DNA of 61,548 nucleotides from NCBI GenBank assembly GCA_025464975.1, contig JAODMT010000002.1, forward strand, positions 1 through 61,548, in the 5' to 3' direction. Position 1 is the stretch's first letter, and the number at the start of each line of letters is the position of its first letter. This document shows, piece after piece, positions 10,676 through 56,123 of this stretch. The position numbers were made by a program, and so were the translations under genes. The stretch is from Microbacteriaceae bacterium. Its GTDB lineage: Bacteria > Actinomycetota > Actinomycetes > Actinomycetales > Microbacteriaceae. The notes under the pieces are model-generated. The model worked only from the letters and a program-made list of their open reading frames with translations. It was not told where the DNA came from and did no database searches.

Positions 10676-11464
10676 ATGAGCGCCGACCAGAAGAGACCAT
10701 CACTCGCCCTTGTCACCGGAGCGACGGCAGGAATCGGCGCCGAGTTCTGCCGCCAGCTCGCCGCGACCGGCGTTGGACTCGTGCTTGTCGCCCGGGACGC
10801 CGCGCGTTTGGAGAACTATGCCGCGGCACTCCGCGCGGAGCACAACGTCACGGTCGAGGTGTTGGCCGCCGACCTCGTGAGCCGAGAGGGACTCGCCGCT
10901 GTCGAGGCTCGGCTCGCGTCATCCGGCACCGGGGACGCCGGTCGGGTGACCATGCTCGTGAACAACGCCGGCTTCGGGCTACGCAAGCCGTTCGACCAAA
11001 ATTCGATCGAGGACGAACAGGGACTCCTCGACGTGCTTGTCGCAGCACCTATGCGGCTGACCCACGCGGCCCTCGGCCAGATGCTTACGGCCGGTTCGGG
11101 CACCATCGTCAACATTGCGAGCGTCGCCGGCTTCACTCCGCGCGGAACATACGGTGCCGCCAAGGCCTGGCTCCTGAGTTTCAGCCGCTGGGCGAACATC
11201 CACTACCGGTCTCGCGGCATCTCCGTGACCGCCGTCGCACCGGGATTCGTGCGCACCGAGTTTCACGAGCGCATGGACGTGAGTACGAAGTCGGTTCCGC
11301 AGTTCCTCTGGCTGGACGCGAAGACTCTTGTGCGGATCGCCCTTCGCGATGTCGCACGCAACAGGGCCGTCTCCGTGCCGACCGTGCGATATAAGACCAT
11401 TGTCTGGCTGGCCGGATGGTTGCCAAAGCCGCTCCTCGCCGGCGGAGGACTTCGCCAGCGCTGA
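10676..11464 (+). CDS. Short-chain dehydrogenase/reductase
   Basis: 262-residue classical SDR, an NAD(P)-dependent oxidoreductase. Visible motifs: TGATAGIG (cofactor-binding, near residue 14), LVNNAGFG (about 95), catalytic Ser in IVNIASVAGF and the YGAAKAW catalytic Tyr/Lys pair. The C-terminal region VWLAGWLPKPLLAGGGLRQ contains a hydrophobic patch found in SDRs annotated as estradiol 17-beta-dehydrogenase-like or DltE-like. Arg in VARDAARLE after beta-2 suggests NADP preference. The substrate is unknown. Same strand as the aminotransferase-like gene that starts 69 bp downstream. Confidence 0.85.
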   Translation: MSADQKRPSLALVTGATAGIGAEFCRQLAATGVGLVLVARDAARLENYAAALRAEHNVTVEVLAADLVSREGLAAVEARLASSGTGDAGRVTMLVNNAGFGLRKPFDQNSIEDEQGLLDVLVAAPMRLTHAALGQMLTAGSGTIVNIASVAGFTPRGTYGAAKAWLLSFSRWANIHYRSRGISVTAVAPGFVRTEFHERMDVSTKSVPQFLWLDAKTLVRIALRDVARNRAVSVPTVRYKTIVWLAGWLPKPLLAGGGLRQR

Positions 11465-11533
11465 CCCTCAGGAATTTTTCGGCCTGCCGTGATCATCCCG
11501 CGCTAGGCGCCGGTCTCCCAGTATTCTCGGATC

Positions 11534-12856
11534 ATGCCAGGACCAGACACGAAGCTCAGCAACGACCTCAGCAACGAACTTCCGGGGGCGACCGGGAAGC
11601 TCGTCGCACGAAGCAACCGGAGCCTAGGGACGGCCAAGCCGCTTTCCTTCGAGGCTCCGGTAGAAATAGTGCGTGGTTCCGGGACCCTCCTGTTCGACGC
11701 CGATGGCACCGAATACCTCGATGTGTATTCCGTTCTGCCCACCGTGGGACACTCGCATCCCCGAGTAGTGGAGGCAATCGCCGCCCAGACCGCGCTTTCC
11801 GACCCGCCGCCCGGATTCCTGAACCGCGCGGTGATCGAGTACTCGGAAGCGCTGCTCGGGACGCTGCCGGCCGGGCTCGACAACGTGCTTTACGCGAATT
11901 CCGGGTCAGAGGCGAACGACCTCGCGCTTCGGATTGCCAAGGCTTCGACCGGCCGGTCCGGAATCATCGTCACCAGGAACGCCAATCACGGCGGCACGAC
12001 CGAGACCGCCGCGATCTCTCCCGCCCTCGGCGGAGCCGCTCGCCTCGCGCCCTGGGTGCGGCTCGTCGACGCACCGGTCGGGGATGGTTCGGCCTTCGCG
12101 CACGACGTCGCAGCGGCGGCCGCCGAACTCCAGGACTCCACCCATGGCTTCGCCGCCCTCATCGCCGACTCGATCTTCGCGTCCGACGGGGTCCAGCCCG
12201 GCGCTCCCGGGTTCTTGTTTCCCGTGCTCGATGCCGTGCATTCGGCCGGCGGACTGTACATCGCAGACGAGACACAGGCCGGATTAGGTCGGGTCGGCAC
12301 CGGGCTCTGGGGCTTCGAACGGCACGACGACGGTGATCGCCGGTTCGTTCCCGACATTGTCACGCTCGGCCAGTCGATGGCCAATGGTCTGCCGGTCGGC
12401 GCGGTCATCGCCGGACGCGATCTCGTCAACGACTTCACGGCGAGTGGAAATCAGCTCACGGACGCTGGCGGCTCCCCGGTGGTCATCGCCGCTGCGAGCG
12501 CAGTGCTCGACGTCGTTCGGGATGAGCGGCTCATCGAAGGCGCGTCAGTCGTCGGTGGCTACATTCAAGCCGGACTCGCGATGCTCGCCGAGTTCCACAG
12601 CCTGATTGGCACCGTGCGCGGCAGCGGACTCGTCATCGGAATCGACATTGTGCGCAACGGCGCACCGGATCAGGCGCAGGCCGTCGCGATCGTTAATGAG
12701 CTCCGACGACGGCATGTGCTTCTCGCCGTGACCGGCCCGCACAACAACACCCTCACCGTGCGGCCGTCGCTCACGTTCGGAACGGCCGATGCCGAGCGAT
12801 TCCTCACCGAATTGGACAGCGCAATTCGGGCGACCCGTATCCGCGACGCCGCCTGA
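11534..12856 (+). CDS. Class-III aminotransferase-fold protein lacking the PLP lysine
   Basis: 440-residue protein with the class-III (ornithine aminotransferase-like) fold: LDVYSVLPTVGHSHPRVVEAI near the N-terminus, YANSGSEANDLALRIAK (PLP phosphate contact), LYIADETQAGLGRVG (Asp that pairs with the pyridine nitrogen) and a C-terminal NTLTVRPSLTF. The motif that normally reads LGKPMGNG reads LGQSMANG: codon CAG at 12371-12373 gives Gln280 where the Schiff-base Lys should be. Canonical transamination is therefore not expected. The aromatic-His pair after the beta strand is also changed (NANHGGT instead of YHG). It may be a pseudoenzyme, or use a chemistry I cannot name. The reading frame is otherwise intact. 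Confidence 0.82.
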   Translation: MPGPDTKLSNDLSNELPGATGKLVARSNRSLGTAKPLSFEAPVEIVRGSGTLLFDADGTEYLDVYSVLPTVGHSHPRVVEAIAAQTALSDPPPGFLNRAVIEYSEALLGTLPAGLDNVLYANSGSEANDLALRIAKASTGRSGIIVTRNANHGGTTETAAISPALGGAARLAPWVRLVDAPVGDGSAFAHDVAAAAAELQDSTHGFAALIADSIFASDGVQPGAPGFLFPVLDAVHSAGGLYIADETQAGLGRVGTGLWGFERHDDGDRRFVPDIVTLGQSMANGLPVGAVIAGRDLVNDFTASGNQLTDAGGSPVVIAAASAVLDVVRDERLIEGASVVGGYIQAGLAMLAEFHSLIGTVRGSGLVIGIDIVRNGAPDQAQAVAIVNELRRRHVLLAVTGPHNNTLTVRPSLTFGTADAERFLTELDSAIRATRIRDAA

Positions 12857-12970
12857 TCGGTCGCCGCCCGGTCCGACAGGCCCGATTCGATAGCGCTGAT
12901 CCGGTAGCGCTGCCTGACAGTCGGCCTCTTGCGCTTTCTCCCGCCGGAGGAGCATTCTTAATACAGAGCA

Positions 12971-13018
12971 ACTCGTCGCCCGGAAGAGCCGCACCAAGTG
13001 CCGCACCGGGCGACGAGT
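12971..13018. terminator. Bidirectional hairpin terminator between convergent genes
   Basis: Perfect 13-bp inverted repeat: left arm 12971-12983 (ACTCGTCGCCCGG), right arm 13006-13018, with a 22-nt loop. It lies between the convergent aminotransferase-like and acyl-CoA dehydrogenase genes. No long T-run follows on either side, as is common for actinobacterial terminators. Confidence 0.7.
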
Positions 13019-13071
13019 CTGTGTGGGGGCTGTGGCGGCCAAATCCGGGTGCTGGCAATTCCGGGCGCTGG

Positions 13072-14352
13072 CTAATCCGGAGCCGGGCCGAGCAGCGTCG
13101 CAGCAACGGTGGCGTGAGCCGAGTCCTCGTTGCTCGGGTGAAACCCGCCGGCCAGCACGTCCCGGTACAGCCGCCCGAGTTCACTCGAGGAGGAGAACGC
13201 CGCTCCCCCGGCGACAGCAATGGCCTGATCCACCACGAATTTGGCGGTGCGAGTCGAGCGGGACTTGATCCCGACCAGATCGCGGAACCACCGATCGCCT
13301 CGATCGACCCTGTGATCGACGTCGGCGGCAAGCGCGTCAAGCTGAGGCAGAAGCGCATCGTGCGCGATCGCGGCATCCGCGACCTTCCACCGGGTGATCG
13401 GATCAGTGGCCTTCGTCTGCCCGGTGCGGGCGGAGACCCGTCGCGTCGCCGACTCCACCGCCAATTCGATCGCCCGCTGTCCGAGGCCGATGTACACCGC
13501 CGAAAGCAAAATCTCGAAGTTCGCGAAGATCGCAAAGATCAACGGATCCGAGTTTGGACCGGGATCAAGCCGACGGTAAACCCGATCGGAGGCAGCGACG
13601 GCCTGCTCGAGGCGCGTGCTGTTGCTCTGGCTCGCCCGCATCCCGATCGTGTCCCAGTCGTCCAGGGTGCGAATCCCCGGCTCGTCGCGGGAGACGACGG
13701 CATGAACGAGCTTGGGCGCATCCGCCGATTCGGTGTCGAGGCCAAACAGAGCGAGCCGGGTCCATGCCGGAGAGAGGCTCGTGAAGATCTTGGTTCCGGT
13801 GAACGCGTAGCCGCCGCCCGGCAGCGGCTTCGCCTCTGTCGTGCTGCCGAACAGCATGAGATCGTTGTCTGCCTCGCTGATCGCGAAGGCGAAGAGCTCA
13901 CCGGCCGCGGCATCCCGAAGCACAAACTCGAGCGAGTCGTCTCCCCGATCGCGCAGTGCCTTCGCGACACCGGTCCAGACCAGGTGCATGTTCACGGCGA
14001 GCGCGGTTGCCGGTGCAGCCGCCGCGAGCCTGACCTGTTCGTGAGCGACCTCGCGAAGGGAGAGCCCGAGTCCGCCAAGCTCCCGCGGAACCAAGGCCCG
14101 AAGGTAACCGGCCGCGGTGAGCTCCTCGAGATCCTCGGCGAAGAAGGCGTTGTCCCGGTCGTAACCGGTCGCACGCGAATGAATACGATCGAGCAACTCA
14201 GTGCCGAGCAACTCAGTGCCGAGCAACTCGGTGCCGATCGGTGCTGCGCCGCGCAGTGCTGTGCCGTTCTGTGCTGCGCCGTTCTGTGCTGCGCCGCTCA
14301 GTGCTGTGCCGTGCCGATCTGTGCCGTGCCATCCGGAGCGAGAGGAACCCAT
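13072..14352 (-). CDS. Acyl-CoA dehydrogenase family protein with repeat N-terminus
   Basis: 426-residue flavoprotein of the acyl-CoA dehydrogenase superfamily. Conserved parts: GYDRDNAFFAEDLEELTAAGYLRALVP (N-terminal helical domain), FAISEADND (FAD-contacting segment in the beta domain), GGGYAFTGTKIFTSLSPAW, and the C-terminal helical bundle ending HPSNEDSAHATVAATLLG. The usual catalytic Glu near the C-terminal bundle is not evident, which fits the more divergent DszC/monooxygenase-like or broad-substrate branch. Residues 10-54 are pentapeptide repeats (GAAQN x2, GTELL x3) not expected in the family. The start is the ATG at 14352; no better internal start is visible. Divergent from the MFS gene. 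Confidence 0.8.
   Translation of the reverse strand: MGSSRSGWHGTDRHGTALSGAAQNGAAQNGTALRGAAPIGTELLGTELLGTELLDRIHSRATGYDRDNAFFAEDLEELTAAGYLRALVPRELGGLGLSLREVAHEQVRLAAAAPATALAVNMHLVWTGVAKALRDRGDDSLEFVLRDAAAGELFAFAISEADNDLMLFGSTTEAKPLPGGGYAFTGTKIFTSLSPAWTRLALFGLDTESADAPKLVHAVVSRDEPGIRTLDDWDTIGMRASQSNSTRLEQAVAASDRVYRRLDPGPNSDPLIFAIFANFEILLSAVYIGLGQRAIELAVESATRRVSARTGQTKATDPITRWKVADAAIAHDALLPQLDALAADVDHRVDRGDRWFRDLVGIKSRSTRTAKFVVDQAIAVAGGAAFSSSSELGRLYRDVLAGGFHPSNEDSAHATVAATLLGPAPD
14191..14295. repeat. 15-bp tandem repeats inside the acyl-CoA dehydrogenase N-terminus
   Basis: GAGCAACTCAGTGCC repeats three times at 14191-14235 and GTTCTGTGCTGCGCC twice at 14266-14295, with decayed units between and after them. 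Period 15 keeps the frame, giving GTELL and GAAQN pentapeptides on the minus strand. Confidence 0.85.
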
Positions 14353-19531: not shown

Positions 19532-20059
19532 TCAGCGGCGCGTGATCGGCGCGACCTCGACCTGAGCCGGCTCGAGGATGATCCCGTCCTCGCTCAGAAA
19601 CGTAACGGTCACCGGACGCTTCGAAGCCACCTCACGGTAGAAGGTCGACGGACCGGCCTCGGTCGGCCGATGTTTGTCGCCCCACGCCGTGAGGGCGGCA
19701 AGCACGGTGTTGAGCTCAACGCCGGTCTCGGTGAGGTGATAGCTGAAGCGCATTCGCGACCCGTCACTCCGGTAGGAGCGACGTTCGAGCACACCGGCGG
19801 AGACCAGTGTCGCGAGCCGGTCGGTGAGGACGTCGGTTGAGACGCCAAGGCTATCCGTGAAGTCGGAGAAGCGGGTCTTGCCGGCCGCGGCATCCCGCAC
19901 GATCAGCATCGTCCATTTCTCACCAAGCACCTCGAGGCTCCGAGCCACGGAGCACGGTTGACCGACCGACGCTGCGCTCGACGGGGCTGCGCTCGACGGG
20001 GCTGCGCTCGACGGGGCTGCCCTAAACGGGGCGGTGCTCGACGGACCGGCAGGAGTCAT
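19532..20059 (-). CDS. HxlR-family transcriptional regulator
   Basis: 175-residue repressor/activator with a winged helix (CSVARSLEVLGEKWTMLIVRDAAAG, LTDRLATLVSAGVLERRSY, YHLTETGVELNTVLAALTAWGDKH). The Cys at the start of the domain is the residue that senses oxidants or electrophiles in several HxlR/MarR-type proteins. Residues 8-32 are Ser/Ala/Pro repeats (SSAAP) made by a 15-bp tandem repeat. A further C-terminal 40 residues form a beta-rich tail. ATG at 20059. It is divergent from an MFS exporter, with a clear palindrome between them, so it most likely controls that exporter and itself. Confidence 0.87.
   Translation of the reverse strand: MTPAGPSSTAPFRAAPSSAAPSSAAPSSAASVGQPCSVARSLEVLGEKWTMLIVRDAAAGKTRFSDFTDSLGVSTDVLTDRLATLVSAGVLERRSYRSDGSRMRFSYHLTETGVELNTVLAALTAWGDKHRPTEAGPSTFYREVASKRPVTVTFLSEDGIILEPAQVEVAPITRR
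19980..20024. repeat. 15-bp tandem repeat in the HxlR gene
   Basis: GACGGGGCTGCGCTC at 19980-19994, 19995-20009 and, with small changes, 20010-20024. In frame, it gives the SSAAP pentapeptides near the N-terminus of the minus-strand regulator. Confidence 0.85.
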
Positions 20060-38509: not shown

Positions 38510-39109
38510 TTAGCCGTTAGTGGAACTCTGGCCGCCCTGGGTCTGCCCGCCCTGGGTCTGGCCGCCCTGGGTCTGGCCGCCCTGGATTTGTCCGCCCTGG
38601 GTCTGCCCGCCCTGGGTCTGCCCGCCCTGGATTTGGCCACGCCGGCCACCGAATCCTTGGCCGCCGAGACCTTGACCGCCGAGCCCCTGACCGCCCTGGG
38701 TCTGGCCACCGCTGAGGCCCGGGCCACCAACCTGGCTAGTCGCGACCGGCGCATGACCCGTGATATAGGTACCGACCAGGATTCCGCCGCTAAACGCCCC
38801 GCCGAGCACAATGACAGCGCCAAGGATGATGGCGACGATGGCCCATCGGCGAGTGGAGTGCGGTGTTCCCACTGTGGCGTATGCCGGCTGGCCTACGAGA
38901 GCGGCGCCGTTGTAGCCGGCGGGCGCGGCATAGGCGGCGGGAGCTGGGTATGCGGCCGGAACGGCGTAGTCAGTTGCGGCGTAGTCGGTAGCGGGCGCCG
39001 GTGTCATCGGTATCGTGTCGGCCGCGGGCTGCGGGACTGGCTCCGCCGATGGCTGCGAAATCGCTTCGGTGTTTCCGGCGCTGTACGGGGTCGGGGTCTC
39101 GTCGACCAT
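38510..39109 (-). CDS. Membrane protein with pentapeptide GGQTQ-repeat tail
   Basis: 199 residues: an acidic Pro/Ala-rich N-terminus with short YA/PA repeats (TDYAATDYAVPAAYPAPAAY), one hydrophobic helix (WAIVAIILGAVIVLGGAFSGGILVG, about 90-113) and an extracellular tail of GGQGLGG and then seven GQTQG/GQIQG pentapeptides, ending SSTNG. The topology suggests a single-pass protein with an exposed Gly/Gln-rich tail. ATG at 39109 follows AGGAG. Encoded just downstream of the FAD-Rieske gene on the same strand. The function is unknown. Confidence 0.75.
   Translation of the reverse strand: MVDETPTPYSAGNTEAISQPSAEPVPQPAADTIPMTPAPATDYAATDYAVPAAYPAPAAYAAPAGYNGAALVGQPAYATVGTPHSTRRWAIVAIILGAVIVLGGAFSGGILVGTYITGHAPVATSQVGGPGLSGGQTQGGQGLGGQGLGGQGFGGRRGQIQGGQTQGGQTQGGQIQGGQTQGGQTQGGQTQGGQSSTNG
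38531..38635. repeat. 15-bp repeat coding for the GGQTQ tail
   Basis: Seven contiguous 15-bp units, GCCGCCCTGGGTCTG with small changes, read in frame on the minus strand as GQTQG or GQIQG. The third positions vary little, so the expansion looks recent. Confidence 0.9.
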
Positions 39110-55146: not shown

Positions 55147-56123
55147 GAGTCGCCTTCCTTCTGATCGGCAGGCTTCTGATCGGCGGGCTTCTGGTCGGCG
55201 GGCTTCTGATCGGCGGGCTTCTGATCTGCGGGGAAGTTTGCGACCGGCTTGGCCGTGCCGCCGCCGAACTGCAGGATGCCAACCAATCGGCCGTCCGGAG
55301 CCACCGCCGCCACCGGTCCGTCGCCGGGGGCCGGCCGCTCGGCGAGCAGCCGCTTGCCGTGACCGAGGTCGACGGCCTGCTCGGCGGTCAACCGGTAGAC
55401 GGGAAATAGTCGTGTGGCGACCGCAGCGGGGGTGAGCAGGCTGGCCGCGACGTCGAGCGACTCAAGTTCCGCGGCATCCGTCACGCTGAACGGGCCGATT
55501 CTCGTGCGACGAAGGGCGGTGAGGTGGCCCCCGACGCCCAGTGCGGCTCCGAGGTCGCGAGCGATTGCGCGGATGTAGGTTCCCGACGAGCACTCGATGC
55601 GCACATCGAGGTCGAGGAAGTCGGCCTCGCGTCGAACCCCGAGTACCTCGAGCGCGGAGATTGTCACGGTTCGCGCCGCGAGCTCGACGGCCTCGCCGGC
55701 GCGGGCGAGGGTGTACGCGCGTCTTCCGTCGACCTTGATGGCACTGACGCTGCTCGGGACCTGTCGGATTTCGCCGGTCAGTCCGGCGAGCGCCCCGTCG
55801 AGTGCCGGCTGACCGAGGGACGCTATCGCCCCGGCCGGCGCCTCGCTGATCGCCTCTCCCTCTGCATCGTCGGTGTTCGTCGCGGAGCCGAGCCGGATGG
55901 TGGCGAAGTATTCCTTGTCGAGACCAACGAGGAAGGTCAGAAGCCTCGTCGAGTTATTGATGCCGAGCACGAGGAGCCCGGTTGCCATCGGGTCGAGGGT
56001 TCCCGCGTGCCCGACCTTCTTGGTTCCGGCGCGCTTACGTACCCTCGCGACGACGTCGTGACTCGTCAGGCCGTTCGGCTTATCGACGAGCAGCATGCCG
56101 CTCTTGCCGTTCGCTTCGGTCAC
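55143..56123 (-). CDS. truB: tRNA pseudouridine-55 synthase
   Basis: 326-residue enzyme that makes pseudouridine 55 in the T-loop of tRNAs. Motifs: LLVDKPNGLTSHDVVARVR, KVGHAGTLDPMATGLLVL (catalytic Asp), RLGSATNTDDAEGE, QVPSSVSAIKVDGRRAY and SSGTYIRAIARDLG; a PUA-like C-terminal part follows. The last 28 residues are PADQK repeated five times, then EGDS, an appended tail that is not part of the family. GTG at 56123. Confidence 0.93.
   Translation of the reverse strand: MTEANGKSGMLLVDKPNGLTSHDVVARVRKRAGTKKVGHAGTLDPMATGLLVLGINNSTRLLTFLVGLDKEYFATIRLGSATNTDDAEGEAISEAPAGAIASLGQPALDGALAGLTGEIRQVPSSVSAIKVDGRRAYTLARAGEAVELAARTVTISALEVLGVRREADFLDLDVRIECSSGTYIRAIARDLGAALGVGGHLTALRRTRIGPFSVTDAAELESLDVAASLLTPAAVATRLFPVYRLTAEQAVDLGHGKRLLAERPAPGDGPVAAVAPDGRLVGILQFGGGTAKPVANFPADQKPADQKPADQKPADQKPADQKEGDS
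55159..55233. repeat. 15-bp tandem repeat coding for the TruB PADQK tail
   Basis: Five units of GGCTTCTGATCGGCG (with a few changes) read on the minus strand as PADQK. They sit just upstream of the truB stop codon. Confidence 0.9.

Follow-up and report, generated by a model that had tools for sequence, protein, structure and literature searches.

What a class-III aminotransferase-fold protein may still do once the lysine that holds its cofactor has gone is the question raised by a gene in the 61,548-nucleotide stretch of Microbacteriaceae DNA analysed here, the whole of which is referred to as the window. In PLP enzymes of this group, the cofactor forms a Schiff base with an active-site lysine, which is displaced by the substrate (excerpt of PMC8154272). 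The gene (Table 1) was singled out by a sequence-only reading, the basic observations of which hold: the frame of 440 codons is intact, with no inner stop, and the translated motif around position 280, PDIVTLGQSMANG, carries a glutamine in alignment with the catalytic lysine. The alignment comprised 40 homologues and a segment of 5g4i, and a lysine was found at position 280 in all of them; three of the homologues are from the genus, 26 from the family and 11 from named genomes (e.g. Gordonibacter, Eggerthella, Collinsella), coverage of this position extending to the 29 relatives with loci and leaving aside family matches lacking them, L091, L092 and the plasmid hits. Two of the 13 named-genome loci, L023 and L024, were omitted from the alignment as too distant, and these also have lysine at this position, as do seven further class-III matches within the window genome (L002-L008, representing six genes, since two matches are pieces of one gene). 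No other lysine of the protein aligns at position 280. Its only lysines are Lys7, Lys22, Lys35 and Lys136, of which Lys35, replacing a conserved tyrosine of the N-terminal segment, is the sole new one that might lie near the pocket. Since the lysine of the internal aldimine is missing in an intact frame, so that an otherwise intact homologue has lost its catalytic residue, the pseudoenzyme, one of the three possibilities offered by the sequence-only reading, is a fair interpretation; the accompanying notion of a preserved cofactor site is not, as will be seen below.

The profile and structure searches are in agreement as to the family. Pfam PF00202 (Aminotran_3) matches residues 42-431 with 185.7 bits against a cut-off of 30.5, while the best NCBIfam matches, PRK06148 (333.9 of 1128 bits) and PRK06149 (316.1 of 973), fall far below their cut-offs. 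The nearest solved relatives, by both sequence and fold, are phospholyases: 5g4i was the best match of the PDB sequence search (4.8e-78) and 6tor the second (3.1e-71), and the same two structures headed the list when folds were compared by means of the predicted model (5g4i at 37% identity). The former (5g4i/5g4j), the PLP-dependent phospholyase A1RDF1 of Arthrobacter aurescens, is closest to the window protein in both respects. The latter, human ethanolamine-phosphate phospho-lyase, shares the fold, its lysine motif reading VTMGKPMGNG where the window protein has VTLGQSMANG. A class-III fold is likewise predicted for the window protein by AlphaFold2 (11 sequences), with moderate confidence (mean pLDDT 68.9, as compared to 71.0 for the Lys-type control L013). 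Residues 1-69 of the model are poor, the N-terminus of the control is poor as well, and both are poor at the active-site loops; structure prediction was consequently rejected as a discriminator of pocket collapse, the two models both being uncertain in these regions.

Table 1. Features of the lyase locus and their positions in the window.
Feature	Position	Strand	Basis or remark
Short-chain dehydrogenase, upstream syntenic neighbour	10676..11464	+	synteny
17 bases before the ATG, resembling the G007 kinase-lyase junction; possible remnant of a lost kinase	11517..11533	+	13/17 identical
Class-III aminotransferase-fold gene, 440 aa	11534..12856	+	orthologous by position to phospholyase-like genes that are associated with a kinase; active site lost
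Residues 35-39, KPLSF vs YRLFY in G003/G006/G007	11636..11650	+	alignment
Ser66-Val67 vs Asn-Asn in 40/40 homologues and 5g4i	11729..11734	+	alignment
Residues 91-95, PPPGF vs T(H/N)(T/S)RY in homologues	11804..11818	+	alignment
Asn151 for Tyr	11984..11986	+	alignment
Thr247 for Val of the DEVQ motif	12272..12274	+	alignment
CAG, Gln280 where the Schiff-base lysine is expected	12371..12373	+	translation and alignment
Residues 307-311, QLTDA vs YF(N/S)T(F/Y) in homologues; includes Thr310Asp	12452..12466	+	alignment
Acyl-CoA dehydrogenase-like gene, downstream syntenic neighbour	13072..14352	-	synteny

The descent of the gene can be followed at its locus. Three genomes of the same genus (G003, G006 and G007) carry Lys-type orthologues, 60-62% identical to the window protein, at the same position between the short-chain dehydrogenase and the acyl-CoA dehydrogenase-like gene, and the syntenic block with G003 is alignable over about 19 kb. 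In the protein tree, the window gene groups with its three homologues from the genus and that of G076 (support 100), the node that joins it to the genus three carrying no support value after rooting. The three congeneric copies have both Lys280 and an APH-family kinase directly upstream, whereas the window gene has neither; a 215-216-aa esterase, which adjoins the lyase in these relatives, is not matched by any reading frame of the window either. In G006 and G007, nine bases separate the end of the kinase (Pfam PF01636) from the start of the lyase. The kinase match of G003 is split by a 15-bp tandem repeat array (L051 10374-10445) into two pieces that are in different frames, and the partner kinase may thus be failing there too, though the G003 lyase keeps its lysine. 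In G076, the kinase is again upstream, at a distance of about 2 kb. A kinase match was detected in the flanking DNA of 25 of the 42 relatives (19 at no less than 33% identity, one of these being the query's own locus), i.e. a kinase beside the lyase is frequent but not universal. Two kinase queries gave no match in the window genome (95.84% complete) at E ≤ 0.001, whereas with one of these queries the very same search recovers the kinase from G003, G006, G007 and G076.

The likeness to the G007 junction within the 69-base gap before the ATG, which was counted by eye and without a significance test, suggests that the kinase was deleted in the window lineage. The sister genome G012 has the same junction, and the deletion would therefore predate the split of the two. 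The 98 bases at 11465-11562 (the 69 upstream bases and the first 29 coding ones) differ from G012 at a single position, as compared to 208 of 1654 fourfold sites in six neighbour genes (P = 2.8e-5 at the fourfold rate); this near-identity speaks for retention of the gene, but it was noticed after the fact and could also come from local recombination. The G012 lyase gene itself falls into an assembly gap, one contig ending at its codon 10 and the next beginning past the gene. Scanning for promoters and terminators turned up a single promoter-like site, which lies on the opposite strand, and no more terminator-like sites than chance would give.

Two further features of the stretch deserve mention in their own right. 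An intergenic hairpin of about 60 nt (12963-13027; 13-bp perfect stem 12971-12983/13006-13018) has counterparts of about 97% identity (over 60-66 bases) in G003, G006 and G007 and one match in its own genome. At E ≤ 1e-6 it was found in 18 of 150 family genomes, which represent 11 of 85 genera. Changes on both sides that keep the pair were seen at three of the 19 predicted pairs among 12 aligned sequences, there was no Rfam match at the gathering score, and the element is a candidate for an undescribed structured RNA. Arrays of 15-16-bp tandem repeats are represented by 35 partly overlapping rows in the 61.5 kb (e.g. 14190-14330, 19971-20044, 38527-38635, 55158-55250), several of them inside reading frames, vs one row in a 19-kb stretch of G003.

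Judging from the closest solved enzymes and the gene adjacency, the pair seen in relatives would comprise an APH-family kinase, phosphorylating an amino alcohol, and a lyase, eliminating phosphate and ammonia with the aid of PLP. A locus that has lost the kinase would no longer supply the phosphorylated substrate presumed here. It may be supposed that selection on the lyase ended together with the supply of its substrate and that the gene has been drifting ever since without having acquired a stop or a frameshift as yet. A slowly decaying relic of this kind is the main rival to a retained dead protein, and its probability, though well short of even, is considerable. The absence of the kinase and the possible junction remnant speak for it, and so does the patchy occurrence of the pair: within the genus, the lyase was found in four of the 13 genomes, the window's own included (E ≤ 1e-80), and the kinase in three, several of these genomes being incomplete (completeness 64-100). 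Farther afield, lyase matches were obtained in 49 of 398 family genomes (E ≤ 1e-85) and in two of 396 order genomes (E ≤ 1e-105), one of the latter being the window's own. Among the matches listed for these three sets there was no homologue of more than 62% identity besides the query, and the 377 plasmid records matched are all below 60% identity. In a tree of five neighbour genes, the window and G012 share a deep branch, the placement of which is poorly supported (41).

The damage to the active site extends far beyond Lys280. Of the 119 columns with a conservation of 90% or more, 26 are altered in the window protein, whereas each of the 40 homologues departs from the consensus in 0-7 (of 117-120); the much more distant 5g4i does so in 24 of 120. 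Of the 115 near-invariant positions at which the four closest relatives also agree, 25 have been lost, namely R27, Y35, R36, F38, Y39, N66, N67, T91, T93, R94, Y95, C122, Y151, V247, F251, K280, P281, Y307, F308, T310, F311, L344, K408, P412 and L431, and with them the conserved active site of an A1RDF1-type phospholyase. Lys280, Tyr151, Val247, Thr310, Asn66-67, Arg94-Tyr95 and Lys408 are all kept by 5g4i and all lost here. We take Tyr151 to be the residue that stacks on the pyridine ring and Thr310 to be the cofactor-phosphate threonine; N66, V247, Y151, K280 and T310 presumably correspond to substrate- and PLP-contacting residues of E. coli GABA aminotransferase, two mutants of which (I50Q and V241A) appear by title among the fold-search matches. 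The DETQ and NSGSEAN motifs named by the sequence-only reading are both present, and its statement that other PLP contacts remain is borne out for Asp245, Gln248 and Gly124/Ser125/Glu126 (Arg410 is kept as well) but not for residues 151, 247 and 310, which read Tyr151Asn, Val247Thr and Thr310Asp. Since so many active-site positions have changed, the claim that the cofactor site as a whole has been kept had to be abandoned.

The same list disposes of a more trivial explanation. CAG and AAG are one base apart, and a sequencing or assembly error at codon 280 might in principle have created the glutamine. Such an error would not suffice, however, because 25 of the 115 near-invariant residues differ, nine of them by at least two base changes, and all of this within an open frame; as an account of the whole pattern the error is refuted, and even for the single codon it is hardly credible.

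Whether these losses accumulated under drift or under selection is a more difficult matter. It had been claimed that the intact frame rules out a decaying pseudogene, and this argument did not stand. In neutral simulations that set out from the G003 gene and ran until the 115 positions had taken on as many changes as were observed (25), 12-34% of the copies were free of stops (P 0.12-0.34), depending on base composition and transition bias. Zero stops are thus what a drifting relic may well show, and the open frame of this GC-rich gene, being weak evidence, was rejected as proof of function. The absence of any frameshift over an expected mean of 142-152 neutral substitutions is less easily reconciled with a relic (P 5e-4 to 6e-2 if a frameshift is assumed to accompany every 20 or every 50 substitutions).

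A better indication comes from where the changes fall. In a relative rate comparison with G003 (outgroup G076), the window protein has 63 unique changes vs 38 (p = 0.017), while for the neighbouring helicase-like gene the figures are 22 vs 30. Split by conservation class, on an alignment slightly different from that of the 63 vs 38 count, the window and G003 changes number 22 vs 3 in columns at least 95% conserved (again with G076 as outgroup), 7 vs 4 in columns 80-95% conserved and 33 vs 29 in columns below 80% (Fisher p = 0.009). Uniform drift predicts more change in the variable columns, and the confinement of the excess to conserved ones therefore disfavours plain drift; the shortfall of variable-column change is significant at P = 0.0017-0.0046 with fixed rates and at P = 0.026-0.039 when rate uncertainty is allowed for. 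The lost positions are also clustered among the invariant ones, which speaks against a relic: 12 pairs lie within two residues of each other vs 4.3 expected (p = 0.0015), the effect being present within five residues (p = 0.0026) and not significant within 10 (p = 0.09). Taken together, the excess in conserved columns and the clustering make an argument of moderate strength, and a better one than the intact frame.

On the other hand, if only those columns are considered at which the four closest relatives agree, 25 of 115 conserved, 11 of 61 middle and 17 of 61 variable ones have changed, and such similar rates are compatible with drift. Branch-wide dN/dS was rejected as a test: in a codon model, omega on the window branch is 0.070, inside the range of eight neighbour genes (0.033-0.102), and does not differ from the background (2 delta lnL 1.53; the neighbour gene PRO rises more, with 8.52). 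Saturation of the synonymous sites, with a branch length of 9.97 that sits at the bound, makes this value indicative only. By the column counts, nevertheless, the variable part of the protein appears to have evolved at the rate of the active congener's protein, and all these lines taken together favour, though not decisively, a scaffold under constraint whose active site has been released or rebuilt, rather than plain drift.

The concentration of changes at conserved positions, with Asp245, Gln248, Arg410 and the phosphate loop kept and with the new Lys35 in place of a conserved tyrosine, might also be read as a change of function, i.e. as catalysis that dispenses with Schiff-base chemistry or employs another cofactor in an altered pocket. 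However, there is no positive sign of activity, Asp310 and the loss of the stacking tyrosine do not suggest a preserved ligand site, and no Gln-type family with a conserved new pocket was found among the genus, family and order genomes, so that we consider this improbable.

Another route by which a lysine-less protein could remain useful is pairing with an active class-III enzyme. The active sites of fold-type-I enzymes lie at dimer interfaces, which would allow such a partnership; the oligomeric state of the window protein is itself presumed. A precedent exists in hLCB1, a relative of PLP enzymes which, like the window protein, is without the PLP-binding lysine and which retains a role as a paralogous subunit pairing with hLCB2 in an active heterodimer, serine palmitoyltransferase (excerpt of PMC3794620). 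In the window genome, in contrast, the search found no close active paralogue, the seven other class-III matches being 30-34% identical and located on other contigs, and a subunit of this type seems even less probable than a new catalytic activity. The titles and abstract openings covered by a limited literature search name no lysine-less class-III phospholyase.

On balance, we lean, with odds somewhat better than even, towards an orthologue of the kinase-associated phospholyases that is catalytically dead and has probably been kept as a folded, non-catalytic protein. On this reading, the window gene is the vertical orthologue of a class-III-fold phospholyase; the kinase was lost in its lineage, and the lyase has lost Lys280, the ring-stacking tyrosine, the phosphate-side threonine and many other positions of its pocket. 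An internal aldimine can no longer be formed and PLP binding has probably gone: the missing lysine, stacking tyrosine and phosphate-side threonine, together with an aspartate placed where the phosphate should bind, make PLP chemistry very unlikely, and the gene very probably encodes a protein incapable of its old chemistry. At present it most likely persists as a folded dead protein serving a non-catalytic role, such as ligand or partner binding. A narrower proposal, according to which it has been re-used in one small bacterial lineage for cofactor-free binding or regulation, with a rebuilt pocket (Lys35, Asn151, Asp310) on a constrained scaffold, is less likely than not, though its probability is far from negligible. 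Against retention in general, one must bear in mind that the drift test reaches a P of only about 0.03, that the losses in the active site are accounted for, with no new role needed, by relaxed selection upon the loss of the kinase and a slow decay thereafter, and that no second species in the dead state is readable among the genomes searched, the G012 copy being lost to the gap mentioned above.

Both outcomes bear on how such genes are to be understood. If the gene is a relic, profile-based annotation would still class a lysine-less protein among the class-III aminotransferases, and where the genome is GC-rich, an open frame is to be regarded as weak evidence of function. If it has been kept by selection, it would show by traceable steps how an enzyme became a non-enzyme, the partner having been lost, the cofactor site dismantled and the scaffold retained, and the Lys-type orthologues that congeners carry in the same place would allow a direct comparison.
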